Shown one piece after another: positions 19,065 to 24,226 of a stretch of DNA of 50,882 bases. Source of the DNA: Lachnospiraceae bacterium (GTDB taxonomy: Bacteria; Bacillota; Clostridia; Lachnospirales; Lachnospiraceae); NCBI GenBank assembly GCA_910573755.1, contig CAJTBO010000016.1, forward strand, positions 54,272-105,153, given 5' to 3'. A program made the position numbers and the translations under genes. The notes below the pieces were generated by a model that saw nothing but the letters and a program-made list of their open reading frames with translations, did not search any database and had not been told where the DNA came from. Each line of letters begins with the position of its first letter. Within the stretch, counting starts at the first letter, position 1.

Positions 19065-19085
19065 CGCCTAAAGGATGTGATTATT

Positions 19086-19826
19086 ATGAAAATAGAAAAA
19101 GTAAATGACCATCAAATACGCTGTACGCTGACCAGAGAAGATCTGCTCAGCAGAGAACTTAAAATAAGTGAACTCGCCTACGGTACGGATAAGGCAAAGG
19201 ATCTGTTTCGCGACATGATGCAGCAGGCCGCCTGCGAATTTGGTTTTGAGGCTGAGGATATCCCTCTTATGATAGAGGCGATCCCTTTAAATGCCGAATG
19301 TATCGTGCTGATCGTAACCAAAGTGGAGGACCCGGAGGAACTTGATACCAGATTTGCCCGTTTTGCCCCTTCCGTGAATGAAGACAGCGAAGAGGGGGAA
19401 AACGATTATTCAGAGATTGCCGATGAAGTGATGGATCTGTTTGAACGGATTCATAAAAACGCTTCCTCTTCTGAAAAGACGGTCGTAAAAGATAAAGATA
19501 CCGTTACAGCCGCAAAATCCGAAAAAGAAGAAGAGGTATACCGTATCTTTACGTTCTCTTCCATGAACGAACTGACCGGCCTTGCCCATATTTTCGGTCC
19601 GGAACTTATCTGCGAAAACCGCCTTTATAAAAACGATCTGAAAAACCAGTATCTTCTGGTTGTCAATCAGCGCGCTCTCTCCGCGGAAGCTTTCGGAAAG
19701 GTCTGCAACACCATTTCCGAATATGGCGTTACAACAAAAGCCATGCAGGCAGGCATCGCCTATATGGATGAACATTTTGACTGTGTCATCTCTGAAAACG
19801 CATTGCAGAAACTCGCAAGGATCTGA
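19086..19826 (+). CDS. mecA: Adaptor protein MecA
   Basis: A 246-aa protein of the MecA family. The N-terminal target-binding domain (MKIEKVNDHQIRCTLTREDL, then LFRDMMQQAACEFGF) is joined by an acidic linker (residues about 95-140) to the C-terminal ClpC-binding domain (YRIFTFSSMNELTGLAHIF, CNTISEYGV, LQKLARI). In Bacilli MecA delivers ComK and other proteins to ClpCP; in Clostridia the targets are less known. I start at the ATG at 19086, with AAGGA 10 nt upstream; an in-frame GTG at 19077 is also possible. Followed by a strong terminator. Confidence 0.9.
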   Translation: MKIEKVNDHQIRCTLTREDLLSRELKISELAYGTDKAKDLFRDMMQQAACEFGFEAEDIPLMIEAIPLNAECIVLIVTKVEDPEELDTRFARFAPSVNEDSEEGENDYSEIADEVMDLFERIHKNASSSEKTVVKDKDTVTAAKSEKEEEVYRIFTFSSMNELTGLAHIFGPELICENRLYKNDLKNQYLLVVNQRALSAEAFGKVCNTISEYGVTTKAMQAGIAYMDEHFDCVISENALQKLARI

Positions 19827-19937: not shown

Positions 19938-20129
19938 TTATGCCTGTTCGATCTTTGCCATCAGTTCATCGATACTGATGCCGTGTACCATAGCAGCCTC
20001 TTCTAAAGACTCCCCCTGTGCCGACGGGCAGCCCAGACAATGCATGCCCGCTTCCATCAGGATCGGTGCCACATCGGGATTTGTTCTTAAGATTTCCCCG
20101 ATCGTCATTTCTTTGGTAATTCCACTCAT
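19938..20129 (-). CDS. DUF1858-domain small protein
   Basis: A 63-aa protein, essentially one DUF1858 domain: [41 protein letters not shown], with the two cysteines of HCLGC. Such domains occur alone or fused to redox and hybrid-cluster-related proteins in anaerobes and may bind metal or carry a disulfide. AGGAGG lies ahead of the ATG at 20129. It is divergent from the pyruvate formate-lyase locus and shares its control region (20130-20388). Confidence 0.85.
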
Positions 20130-20291: not shown

Positions 20292-20321
20292 TTGACTTAA
20301 CTGTGTTTTGTACTCTATAAT
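20292..20321 (+). promoter_or_regulatory. Promoter of the pyruvate formate-lyase locus
   Basis: TTGACT (20292-20297) and a perfect TATAAT (20316-20321) spaced 18 bp, giving a leader of about 60 nt before the AGGAGG and ATG at 20389. Strong sigma-A type, as expected for a main fermentation enzyme. No clear Rex or FNR box was recognised. Confidence 0.75.
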
Positions 20322-20388: not shown

Positions 20389-22425
20389 ATGAGACCAGAA
20401 TGGACAGGTTTTGTAGGCAACAAATGGGACCGCGAGGTAAACACCCGTGATTTCATCCAGAAGAACTATACCCCTTACGAGGGAGATGATTCTTTCCTGG
20501 CAGAGCCTACACAGAACACAAAAGACTTATGGGAAATGGTACTGGATCTTTCCAAAAAAGAACGTGAAGCAGGCGGTGTACTGGATATGGACACCAAGGT
20601 TGTTTCCACCATTACTTCCCACGGCCCGGGTTACCTTGACAAGAGCAAAGAAACTATCGTAGGTTTCCAGACAGACGCTCCTTTCAAGAGATCCCTGCAG
20701 CCCTACGGCGGTATCCGTATGGCAGAGAAAGCTTGCGCAGATAACGGTTACGAAGTAGATCCCGAGATCTCCGAGTTCTTCTCCACACACAGAAAAACAC
20801 ACAATGCCGGTTGTTTCGATGCATATAATCAGGAAATGAGAGCATGCCGTTCTTCCCATATTATCACGGGCCTTCCTGATGCTTACGGCCGCGGCCGTAT
20901 CATCGGCGACTACAGACGTGTCGCTCTGTACGGTATCGACAGACTGATCGAAGACAAACAGGATCAGAAAAACTCCACAGGACGCGTGATGACCGATGAA
21001 GTGATCCGTCTTCGTGAAGAGATCTCCGAGCAGATCGTTGCTCTGAAGATGATGAAGGAAATGGCTGCCTCCTACGGCTGCGACATCTCCAAACCCGCAT
21101 CCAATGTACAGGAAGCTATCCAGGCTACTTATTTCGGATATCTGTGTGCTGTTAAGGAACAGAACGGTGCTGCTATGTCCCTCGGACGTACTTCCACATT
21201 CCTTGACTGCTACGCTGAAAGAGACTTAAAGAACGGCACATTCACAGAAGAACAGATTCAGGAATTTGTTGACCACTTCATTATGAAGCTGCGCTGCATC
21301 AAATTTGCACGTACTCCTGAATATAACCAGATTTTCGCCGGCGATCCGGTATGGGTAACAGAATCCCTCGGCGGTATGGGCGTTGACGGACGTTCTCTCG
21401 TAACAAAGATGAGTTTCCGTTTCCTGCACACACTGACAAACCTGGGTGCTTCTCCGGAGCCCAACCTGACAGTTCTGTGGTCCACAAGACTTCCTGAGAA
21501 CTGGAAGAGATACTGCGCAAAGATGTCTATCCAGACTTCTTCCATCCAGTATGAGAACGATGACCTGATGAGAGCTACCCACGGCGATGACTACGGTATC
21601 GCATGCTGCGTATCCTCCATGGTAATCGGTAAGGAAATGCAGTTCTTCGGCGCTCGTGCCAACGTTGCGAAATGTCTGCTGTACGCGTTGAACGGCGGTG
21701 TTGACGAAGTTACCAAGAAACAGGTTGGTCCTAAGTATCGTCCTGTAACAGGCGATGTTCTGGACTATGATGATGTTTGGGATAAGTTCATGGATATGCT
21801 GGAGTGGCAGGCAGACGTATATGTAAATACTCTGAACATCATTCACTATATGCATGATAAATACTGCTATGAGAGAGCTGAGATGGCTCTGCATGACAGA
21901 GACGTAAAACGTTACTTTGCAACAGGTGTTGCCGGTCTGTCCATCGTAGCTGACTCCCTGTCCGCAATCAAGTACGCTAAAGTTGAAGTGGTTCGTGATG
22001 AGGACGGCGTGATCGTAGACTTTAAGACCACCGGCGAGTTCCCGAAATATGGTAACGATGATGACCGTGTTGACGATATTGCTCAGGAAGTTGTTCACAG
22101 ATTCATGACAGCGATCAGAAGACACCATACCTACAGAGAAGGCGTTCCTACTACTTCCATTCTTACCATTACTTCCAACGTAACTTATGGTAAGGCTACA
22201 GGCAACACACCTGACGGACGTAAGAAAGGCCAGCCGTTCGCTCCCGGTGCCAACCCGATGCACGGCCGTGATACCCACGGTGCGGTTGCTTCTCTGTCTT
22301 CCGTATCCAAACTGCCGTTCAAAGATGCTCAGGATGGTATCTCCAATACCTTCACGATCATCCCCGGCGCTCTCGGTAAGGAAGATCAGGTATTCTCGGG
22401 TGATATCGAGCTTGAACTGAAATAA
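20389..22425 (+). CDS. pflB: Pyruvate formate-lyase catalytic subunit lacking glycyl-radical domain
   Basis: A 678-aa protein that follows pyruvate formate-lyase over its barrel: the active-site pair Cys406-Cys407 in [30 protein letters not shown], and close to its end [19 protein letters not shown]. Complete enzymes have about 740-760 residues and continue from that point into NL(V/M)xxLDGYF...RVSGYAV with the radical glycine. Here the chain instead ends [12 protein letters not shown], and the missing piece is encoded separately at 22809-23051. The enzyme converts pyruvate + CoA to acetyl-CoA + formate under anoxia. The lack of the radical Gly in cis means it can work only with a partner in trans. 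Separate RBSs, structured spacers and the conserved activase downstream argue against a sequencing error. Confidence 0.95.
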
Positions 22426-22472
22426 AGCACGATAAAACCTGAATAGTTCGATATCACCTTTGATAATCGAAC
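22399..22472 (+). promoter_or_regulatory. Mutually exclusive RNA hairpins at the pflB stop
   Basis: Segment A (22399-22409, GGTGATATCGA, inside the last codons of pflB) pairs with B (22445-22458, ending TCGATATCACC). B can instead pair with C (22461-22472, TGATAATCGAAC) around a CCTT loop. CCTGAAT is repeated at 22438 and 22472. This is the geometry of an attenuator or a translation-coupled switch. Pairings are seen; function is inferred. Confidence 0.5.
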
Positions 22473-22502
22473 CTGAATCGAAATAATAAAATAACCAAAA
22501 CC

Positions 22503-22538
22503 GCAGCCGCCCGGCCGGTCCGCCGGCGGTGCGGCTGC
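22503..22538 (+). promoter_or_regulatory. GC-rich intercistronic hairpin downstream of pflB
   Basis: GCAGCCGC pairs with GCGGCTGC around an inner CCGGC/GCCGG stem. No T-run follows; the next gene's RBS comes right after. It is likely a 3' stabiliser for the pflB message or a processing signal that sets the ratio of the three split-enzyme parts. Confidence 0.6.
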
Positions 22539-22557
22539 AGAACTGGAGTAAAAATAA

Positions 22558-22773
22558 ATGGATGATAAGGCTTTAATCGACGATCTTGTTAAAATGCTGG
22601 ATTCCGGCATGGCTGGCGGTGTTGGACACGTAAACATCGATTATGATGAAAATAATGAACAGGACAGATCCGTTCAGACTATGGGCTGCACGGATTGTTC
22701 CAGAACCCCGCTCGCATGCAGCGTTCCGACTCTGGAACAGGGTTTGGATGATTACTCAGGTTCTGGTATATAA
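22558..22773 (+). CDS. Small Cys-containing protein related to the start of the glycyl-radical domain
   Basis: A 71-aa protein with GGAG before its ATG. Residues 6-28 ([20 protein letters not shown] and following) line up with residues 6-29 of the next gene product ([20 protein letters not shown] and following), sharing LV..LLD.G..GG.GH.N. After that it diverges: no RVSGYAV loop, but Cys44, Cys47 and Cys54 ([12 protein letters not shown]) and a Ser/Gly tail. I read it as a duplicated and remodelled copy of the radical-domain N-terminus, perhaps a placeholder, assembly or redox-sensing partner of the split enzyme. No known family recognised; function is inference. Confidence 0.75.
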
Positions 22774-22808
22774 TCTTAAATAATGTTAATACTATGGAGG
22801 TAAAACCA

Positions 22809-23051
22809 ATGGCAGCAAACACAGTTCAGGTTGACAACCTGGTAAACTTACTGGATGGCTATGCAACAAAGGGAGGCCATCACTTAAATGTTAATGTATT
22901 AAACAGAGATATGTTACTGGACGCTCAGAAGCATCCTGAGAACTATCCTCAGCTTACGATCCGTGTTTCCGGATATGCTGTAAACTTCATCAAGCTTACA
23001 CCGGAACAGCAGGCTGACGTTATCTCCCGTACATTCCATGAGGCTATCTGA
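22809..23051 (+). CDS. grcA: Autonomous glycyl-radical domain protein (GrcA-like), missing part of PflB
   Basis: An 80-aa protein; GGAGG lies 8 nt before the ATG at 22809 ([10 protein letters not shown]), better than the in-frame ATG at 22794. It contains everything absent from the upstream Pfl[48 protein letters not shown] and [11 protein letters not shown], with the radical glycine at residue 55. In Escherichia coli YfiD/GrcA is a spare part that rescues oxygen-cleaved PFL, but there the main enzyme has its own domain. Here this protein must supply the only radical glycine, so it is a true subunit. The activase gene follows. The organism can replace this small chain alone after oxygen damage. 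Confidence 0.93.
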
Positions 23052-23158: not shown

Positions 23159-23920
23159 ATGAAAGGACGTATTCATTCACTTGAAAGTTTTGGTACCGTA
23201 GACGGTCCGGGCACAAGATTTGTCGTTTTTGTACAGGGTTGCCCCATGAGATGCGCTTATTGCCACAACCCTGACACCTGGGCTATGGATGGCGGTACGA
23301 TGATGGAACCTGCCGAAATCATTGAGCAGTTTGAAAAGAACCGCCCCTTCTATAAAAATGACGGGGGACTTACCGTCACCGGCGGCGAGCCTTTAATGCA
23401 GGTAGATTTTCTGATCGATCTGTTTACGCTTGCAAAAGAGCATAATATCCATACCTGTATTGACAGTTCCGGTATCGCCTATAAGGAAAATAACACTGCT
23501 TTCATTCAGAAACTGGATAAACTCATGCCGCTGACTGATCTTGTCATGCTGGATATCAAGCATATTGATCCTGAAAAGCATAAGGAACTGACAAGCCAGC
23601 CCAATGACGGCATTCTTGCTTTTGCAAAATATCTGGAAAAGAAACAGGTCCCTGTATGGATCCGTCATGTGATCGTACCCGGGGTGACAGATGATGAAAA
23701 GTATCTGTATCAGCTTGGTCACTTTATCGGCCGGCTTTCCAACCTGAAGGCTCTCGATGCGCTTCCGTATCATACTATGGGTGAGAAAAAATATGAAAGC
23801 CTCGGTATGGAATACAAGCTTCATGGAGTTCCCGCAATGGACCAGAAAACTCTACTTGTAAAAAAGCAGGCTATTCTGGATGGAATAAAAGCAGCACGTA
23901 AAGAAATGGAACAGGCGTAA
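23159..23920 (+). CDS. pflA: Pyruvate formate-lyase activating enzyme
   Basis: A 253-aa radical SAM protein. The [4Fe-4S] motif CPMRCAYC (CxxxCxxC) lies near residue 30 in VQGCPMRCAYCHNPDTW; VTGGEPLMQ is the SAM-binding GGE motif. Start ESFGTVDGPGTRFVVFVQ is typical of PflA. It generates the glycyl radical using SAM and a low-potential electron donor. Here its target should be Gly55 of the separate 80-aa domain protein in complex with PflB. RBS AAGGAG precedes the ATG. The ferredoxin gene 136 bp downstream could supply the electron. Confidence 0.96.
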   Translation: MKGRIHSLESFGTVDGPGTRFVVFVQGCPMRCAYCHNPDTWAMDGGTMMEPAEIIEQFEKNRPFYKNDGGLTVTGGEPLMQVDFLIDLFTLAKEHNIHTCIDSSGIAYKENNTAFIQKLDKLMPLTDLVMLDIKHIDPEKHKELTSQPNDGILAFAKYLEKKQVPVWIRHVIVPGVTDDEKYLYQLGHFIGRLSNLKALDALPYHTMGEKKYESLGMEYKLHGVPAMDQKTLLVKKQAILDGIKAARKEMEQA

Positions 23921-24055
23921 ATTCATAATTTTTCCTGATATTTTTCATACTTTTAGACTTGTATATCTCATAAGATTATATTAAAATAAAAAAGATTGAA
24001 GGATGGGGACTATCCCATCCTCCTGCAAACTTTATACATAAGGAGGAATTATCTC

Positions 24056-24226
24056 ATGGCATTTGTAATTAATGATGGTTGTATCGGTTGTGGTGCATGT
24101 GCAGGCACATGTCCTGTTGGCGCTATTTCTGAAGATGGCGGTAAATTCGTTATTGATGAAAACGTATGCATCTCCTGCGGCGCATGTGCAGGCGGCTGCC
24201 CTGTTGGTGCTATCTCTGAGGCTTAA
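24056..24226 (+). CDS. 2[4Fe-4S] ferredoxin
   Basis: A 56-aa clostridial-type ferredoxin with two CxxCxxCxxxCP motifs: CIGCGACAGTCPVGAI and CISCGACAGGCPVGAI. The two halves are near copies, as usual. AGGAGG lies 6 bp before the ATG at 24056; an in-frame ATG 60 bp upstream lacks such a site. Its position behind pflA suggests an electron supply to the activase, but ferredoxins also serve hydrogenase and pyruvate:ferredoxin oxidoreductase. Probably strongly expressed. Confidence 0.95.
   Translation: MAFVINDGCIGCGACAGTCPVGAISEDGGKFVIDENVCISCGACAGGCPVGAISEA

Follow-up and report, generated by a model that had tools for sequence, protein, structure and literature searches.

Pyruvate formate-lyase (PFL) is part of textbook anaerobic metabolism. 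Spare copies of its glycyl-radical domain (GRD) are known as YfiD/GrcA and phage T4 Y06I, and the PFLs of their hosts have a GRD of their own; in BSS and HPAD the large chain likewise retains its own GRD. Most glycyl-radical enzymes (GREs), PFL included, were described in 2025 as homodimers of a single polypeptide (PMC12590467). In E. coli, GrcA/YfiD, which rescues PFL that oxygen has cleaved, is reported to be activated by PflA and to act in trans on the PFL barrel (PMC8683613; PMC12338860). With GrcA present, a PflB G734A variant still yields intermediate amounts of formate in vivo, and none without it (PMC12338860). An artificial E. coli PFL cut after residue 695 is reported to reach wild-type activity once activated with YfiD (PMC8683613).

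The locus described here lies in a window of 50,882 nucleotides (the whole stretch of DNA that was analyzed) from a Lachnospiraceae bacterium, and carries pflB, a 71-aa open reading frame, a stand-alone GRD and pflA, all on one strand. The pflB frame (20389-22425, + strand) encodes a 678-aa catalytic barrel that matches positions 2-665 of the 744-position PFL model TIGR01255 (1091.2 bits; cut-off 994.2). Its adjacent catalytic cysteines, in the motif IACCVSS, are both invariant across 38 aligned rows. The predicted activity is that of a PFL, the conversion of pyruvate and CoA to formate and acetyl-CoA. The match stops at model position 665 with no radical glycine domain in the same chain. The GRD is a separate frame (22809-23051, + strand) whose 80-aa product holds Gly55 in RVSGYAV and matches TIGR01255 over positions 663-743. 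Since the two proteins together cover the model, they amount to one PFL cut at the radical-domain border. An earlier, sequence-only reading had described such a small protein, with the same motif and glycine, starting where PflB ends, and this is borne out. Its PflB indeed stops where the GRD should begin, but runs 11 residues beyond GALGKEDQ, just after which that reading had ended it.

The pflA gene (23159-23920, + strand) encodes a 253-aa radical-SAM activating enzyme (TIGR02493, 300.1 bits; cut-off 231.75). Ahead of pflB lies a promoter-like site, TTGACT-18-TATAAT (20292-20321, + strand), with 11 of 12 consensus matches; it is weak, because seven such sites were found against 7.2 expected in shuffles. 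Genes for a MecA adaptor (19077-19826) and a small DUF1858 redox-disulfide protein with the motif CLGC (19938-20129) are also found upstream of pflB. Downstream of pflA is a gene for a small ferredoxin with two 4Fe-4S motifs (23996-24226; NF058577, 79.9 bits against a cut-off of 65), which might donate electrons to the activase.

The small protein belongs to the NCBIfam family NF038360, “GrcA3”. Its 85-aa reading scored 159 bits against a cut-off of 158, and 158.2 in the genome scan; the frame opens at 22794, but GGAGG stands just before the ATG at 22809, so that the 80-aa form is likely. Gly55 is invariant in all 20 aligned GrcA3 copies, two of them from the window's genome. Like E. coli GrcA/YfiD, GrcA3 is a small GRD encoded apart from a PFL barrel, and its closest solved small protein is 6OWR. 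The two differ in that GrcA/YfiD is a spare for a complete PFL, whereas GrcA3 is the sole GRD found for the canonical PFL. GrcA3 also lacks the long N-terminal extension of YfiD (80 vs. 127 aa), and scores 99 bits with TIGR04365, the model of the GrcA/YfiD spare part, under its cut-off of 170. The name of NF038360 speaks of an autonomous glycyl radical cofactor, with no mention of a middle protein or a truncated barrel. The artificial tPFL (1-695) with YfiD is cut at nearly the same place and is competent once activated, but is engineered and weak in binding and activation (PMC8683613), whereas most natural forms carry a tail or a middle protein in addition.

Does the genome hold another PFL? 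The window's own assembly (G000) is a draft of 4.88 Mb in 87 contigs, 95.38% complete, in which PF01228 is found in eight places and PF02901 in six. Three single-chain enzymes of 840, 690, and 807 aa have TIGR01774 (PFL2 type) as their best NCBIfam match, its cut-off being passed by the 840-aa enzyme only; the radical domain of the 807-aa enzyme is detected by TIGR01774 and missed by PF01228. The other GRE-type places are an NrdD-like protein (identified by eye), an orphan GrcA3, a second split enzyme and a 27-bit PF02901 match on contig C9. With TIGR01255 the three single-chain enzymes and the barrel of the second split enzyme reach 68-164 bits, far under 994.2. With this model on five of the six PF02901 places (the sixth is the 27-bit match on C9), no second canonical PFL was found in the 95.38% complete draft, and a frame-based survey of full-length PFLs scored 3 of 14 candidates in this genome. 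The check for a second full-length PFL proposed in the sequence-only reading has therefore turned up none in the draft, and the full-length enzyme that a host keeps for rescue by GrcA/YfiD was likewise not found in it. Given the low TIGR01255 scores of the other enzymes, the draft, as far as it goes, puts the radical glycine of the canonical PFL in trans. The cysteine pair of the barrel, the radical glycine of GrcA3, the neighboring pflA and the failure to find a full-length PFL in the draft together make this a split PFL by sequence, and it is highly probable that the canonical PFL here is obligately split.

The orphan GrcA3 (L017, 4423-4665, - strand, on contig C35) is 80 aa long and 95% identical to the window's copy, with no barrel adjoining. 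Such copies recur: 26 of 80 named loci have GrcA3 without barrel or middle frame, and 21 of these 26 include at least 2.5 kb of upstream sequence. The 80 loci are those closest to the window's GrcA3 and hence near relatives only; barrel, middle frame and GrcA3 are present in 47 of them, middle frame and GrcA3 with the sequence ending before any barrel in seven, and a barrel without the middle frame in none.

The split itself is widespread. GrcA3 scored over the NF038360 cut-off in 101 of 299 genomes of the window's family, whose named relatives are filed mostly as Lachnospiraceae. Counted by hand from open frames (matches down to E 5.5e-39), a stand-alone GrcA3 is present in at least 98 genomes over the cut-off and in 16 just below it. 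Full-length PFL is present in at least 107 genomes (matches listed down to about 1106 bits, up to three candidates per genome), and at least six of the 114 genomes counted with a stand-alone GrcA3 have both forms. The proposal that the radical glycine is always in trans here is supported for the window's own draft genome, but the split is no universal trait. Among the matches listed, a truncated barrel was present in 37 genomes, all 37 with a stand-alone GrcA3, and each of the 30 best-scoring GrcA3 loci (a non-random set) has an upstream barrel that stops before the GRD. The order barrel-(middle)-GrcA3 is recurrent, with a pflA-like frame behind GrcA3 in many loci (uncounted). A profile of the middle protein matched 16 of 148 genomes sampled across the class, most of them weakly; six of these loci, read further, all proved to be split PFLs, and three families other than the window's account for five. 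Many genomes of the window's family, and three further families of the class, thus have the same split, which the earlier reading had suggested looking for in relatives.

All three parts are under purifying selection. pN was below pS in every pair compared (1485 of 1485 for 55 middle proteins, 1485 of 1485 for 55 GrcA3 and 325 of 325 for 26 barrels), and dN/dS over unsaturated pairs was 0.151 for the middle gene (87 pairs), 0.077 for GrcA3 (667) and 0.047 for the barrel (227). These data bear on the alternative of gene decay or misassembly at the barrel, with GrcA3 serving another PFL. The family name, with its “autonomous” cofactor, and the orphan copy elsewhere in the genome would fit such a reading; it is nevertheless extremely improbable given the low dN/dS of the barrel, a draft in which no other canonical PFL was found, and a barrel that ends before the GRD in 77 of 77 barrel loci. 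A frameshift or assembly error of pflB in particular is ruled out by the recurrent barrel end across loci and by selection.

How far is this form already described? The best PDB matches of the window's barrel are 38LA and 38LB, both “Formate acetyltransferase”, with chains of 687 and 739 residues that were not matched by a GRD query; 38LB has a cysteine-bearing tail (VMFGECDMCEMKE). From their sequences these seem to be split PFLs, but they could be engineered cuts. With GrcA3 catalogued by NCBI and these two PDB entries, the split form is already known to someone. A literature search aimed at split PFL, with most subscription papers beyond its reach, found no paper describing one, and its listings mentioned neither the middle protein and its exchange with a fused tail nor the re-fusions, the phage form or the second split GRE. 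What is new here is the 71-aa middle gene.

The middle gene (22558-22773, + strand), overlooked in the sequence-only reading, belongs to the PFL system. Its product has a GRD-like first half (IDDLVKMLD...GVGHVNID) without a radical loop, and a cysteine tail. Compared profile against profile, its first 30 residues resemble the start of GrcA3 (hhalign probability 94.7, E 6.1e-8, 30 columns), so that this homology is established against GrcA3 rather than the Pfam model PF01228. In E. coli PFL the start of the GRD holds a strand that completes the sheet of the barrel. The second half is of the type C-x6-C-x2-P-T-L, and G23, H24, N26, C47, A53, C54, P57, and G62 are invariant in 42 aligned middle proteins. 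NF038360 matches 34 of these 42 at E ≤ 0.1 (best 1.3e-6), the window's copy not among them. Conversely, the middle-protein profile matches nine frames as long as a full-length PFL (751-774 aa) at E 3.3e-4 to 9.2e-4; the GRD was confirmed as the matched place in one of the nine (G257). If the stop codon of the barrel is read through, the TIGR01255 match extends into the middle gene up to positions 700 and 704 (G099 and G110). The window's copy matched no family in Pfam (E ≤ 1), NCBIfam or PHROGs. PF01228 weakly matched one of the 42 copies (E 0.034), and the RVxGYA motif of the radical-glycine loop was absent from the copies inspected. A PDB profile search with the middle protein returned two matches at chance level, 38LB not being matched.

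Between pflB and the middle gene, the spacer (22426-22557) contains a strong GC hairpin in the RNA (22503-22538, + strand) with no T run after it; the fold of the spacer has a z of -5.19, with none of 200 shuffles as good. The hairpin is not fixed, as z ranges from -0.16 to -6.93 in the spacers of 10 relatives. Just past the pflB stop, the spacer also has some sequence that is similar, by eye, to the 3′ end of pflB, and a clearer repeat of this kind is found in the spacer of L054.

The distribution of the middle gene suggests what it may supply. Of the 77 barrel loci, 57 have the middle gene and no cysteine in the barrel tail, 19 have at least two tail cysteines and no middle gene, one has neither and none has both. 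On the tree the middle gene changes six times and the tail seven times; the exclusion does not reach statistical significance because only two supported independent contrasts are available. The pattern is what one function delivered either in cis or in trans would produce, and is striking rather than proven. It is probable that the PFL is split, works in trans and has the middle protein as a part of the enzyme. Neither a cap nor a tail is indispensable, as split PFLs without a tail exist (phage G464, contig G465, and locus L049).

By analogy with the E. coli system, PflA would place the radical on GrcA3, which would dock with its GHHLNVNV strand against the open edge of the barrel, and the radical would then move between chains to the cysteine pair of the barrel. 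After oxygen damage, only the small 80-aa part would need replacing. Assembly, activation and oxygen repair would thus be expected to differ from those of a normal PFL, as the sequence-only reading had proposed.

In this explanation the middle protein is related to the docking half of GrcA3, lacks the radical, and would supply the barrel with a cysteine tail; in other lineages the tail is fused to the barrel. In the reading that we tentatively prefer, it would cap the empty radical-domain slot of the unloaded barrel, and shield or hold the catalytic cysteines until GrcA3 takes over. An AlphaFold model of the L100 barrel with its middle protein had a mean pLDDT of 67.2 and a usable barrel core; Foldseek and VIA ranked E. 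coli PFL first. Residues 592-637 and 652-787 were nearly all below 50, and with such values at the barrel C-terminus and in the middle protein no claim on docking is made.

The middle protein could instead be a loading or recognition element in a three-part complex, acting in trans in place of residues 696-733 and the N-terminal part of YfiD in E. coli, so that GrcA3 is bound and activated well. Residues 696-733 have been proposed as a recognition element, and in the cut enzyme that has lost them YfiD binding is undetectable and activation falls 32-fold (PMC8683613). The GRD-like half, which matches the start of the GRD, the read-through matches to 700 and 704 and the short N-terminus of GrcA3 would all suit such a role. 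However, a strand that resembles the docking strand of GrcA3 should compete with it, and the tail-fused forms have kept the cysteine tail rather than the GRD-like half, which leaves loading a possible but rather doubtful role. Small extra subunits of other GREs suggest a further option, since BSS and HPAD are reported to have them (PMC12590467): the middle protein or the cysteine tail might be an accessory for redox chemistry or metal binding, or might partner PflA, outside the GRD slot. C47 and C54 are invariant in 42 of 42 middle proteins, but two invariant cysteines are few for a cluster and the GRD-like half points to the barrel, and an accessory of this kind seems unlikely.

A second, different split GRE is encoded on contig C33 of the same genome (L016, 4739-4993 and 5100-7403, - strand), with a 767-aa PFL2-type barrel and, behind it, an 84-aa GRD bearing RVAGYSA. 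Of 41 genomes searched for relatives of this barrel, six matched at E ≤ 1e-150. The same barrel end is found in G448, G446, and two tandem barrels of G015 (85-88% identical) and in G444 (56%). The separate GRD is present in G448, G015, and G444, whereas the G446 contig ends before its position. In G015 a single GRD stands behind the two tandem barrels, and in G444 an activase-like frame follows the split enzyme. Two more distant relatives (39-40%) are full-length.

An IQ-TREE phylogeny was built on 335 columns from 58 of the 68 barrels, 10 near-copies being set aside, and supports the main split group at 98/90; FastTree with all 68 barrels gives the same nesting, with only 0.543 for this group. 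Three full-length PFLs (L210-L212) are nested within the split group (99/96), and with the GrcA3 model their radical domains reach 162, 160, and 149 bits, two of them over the cut-off; they are probable re-fusions, to judge from these scores and their placement. The split pair carried by phage clusters elsewhere, with a separate full-length clade (98/94). At least three transitions between split and whole forms are required by the supported branches, and the split has therefore been gained or lost more than once.

Viral contigs searched with peptide patterns of the window's barrel alone gave no PFL relatives, whereas DNA patterns and an alignment did find some. Two IMG/VR records (L179, 503-5817, in G464, 79 kb; L181 in G466, 73 kb) encode a split PFL made up of a 77-aa GRD and a tail-less barrel of 675 aa. 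The barrel can be read only if TGA is taken as a sense codon, and a conserved Trp site reads TGA in L179. NrdD- and NrdG-like genes (by eye) are found in both records, and G464 also has tape-measure and virion proteins, which speak for a tailed phage. A third locus (L180, 1752-4057, - strand), on a contig of 109.8 kb filed as viral (G465), encodes a 680-aa barrel and a 77-aa GRD, also tail-less, in the standard code. It adjoins a PriA-like protein (by eye), and no virion gene was found among the six proteins of this contig that were scanned.

Taken at its fullest, the preferred cap reading would make the middle protein a new GRE subunit, a radical-less decoy that sits in the slot while its cysteine tail guards the catalytic cysteines and that is swapped for GrcA3, so that PFL could be parked in oxygen and re-armed. 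Splitting would be old and reversible, having arisen in two GRE subfamilies of one genome, and would also be carried by a phage. We offer this as conceivable, though on balance doubtful in its entirety. The middle protein is in any case a testable candidate for protecting an empty radical enzyme, and these loci provide a natural system in which to follow the opening, docking and activation of a GRD, and to learn what makes residues 696-733 important in E. coli. A family of gut bacteria here encodes PFL with its radical cofactor on a separate part. Annotation may, at a guess, take such genomes as having a truncated PFL.
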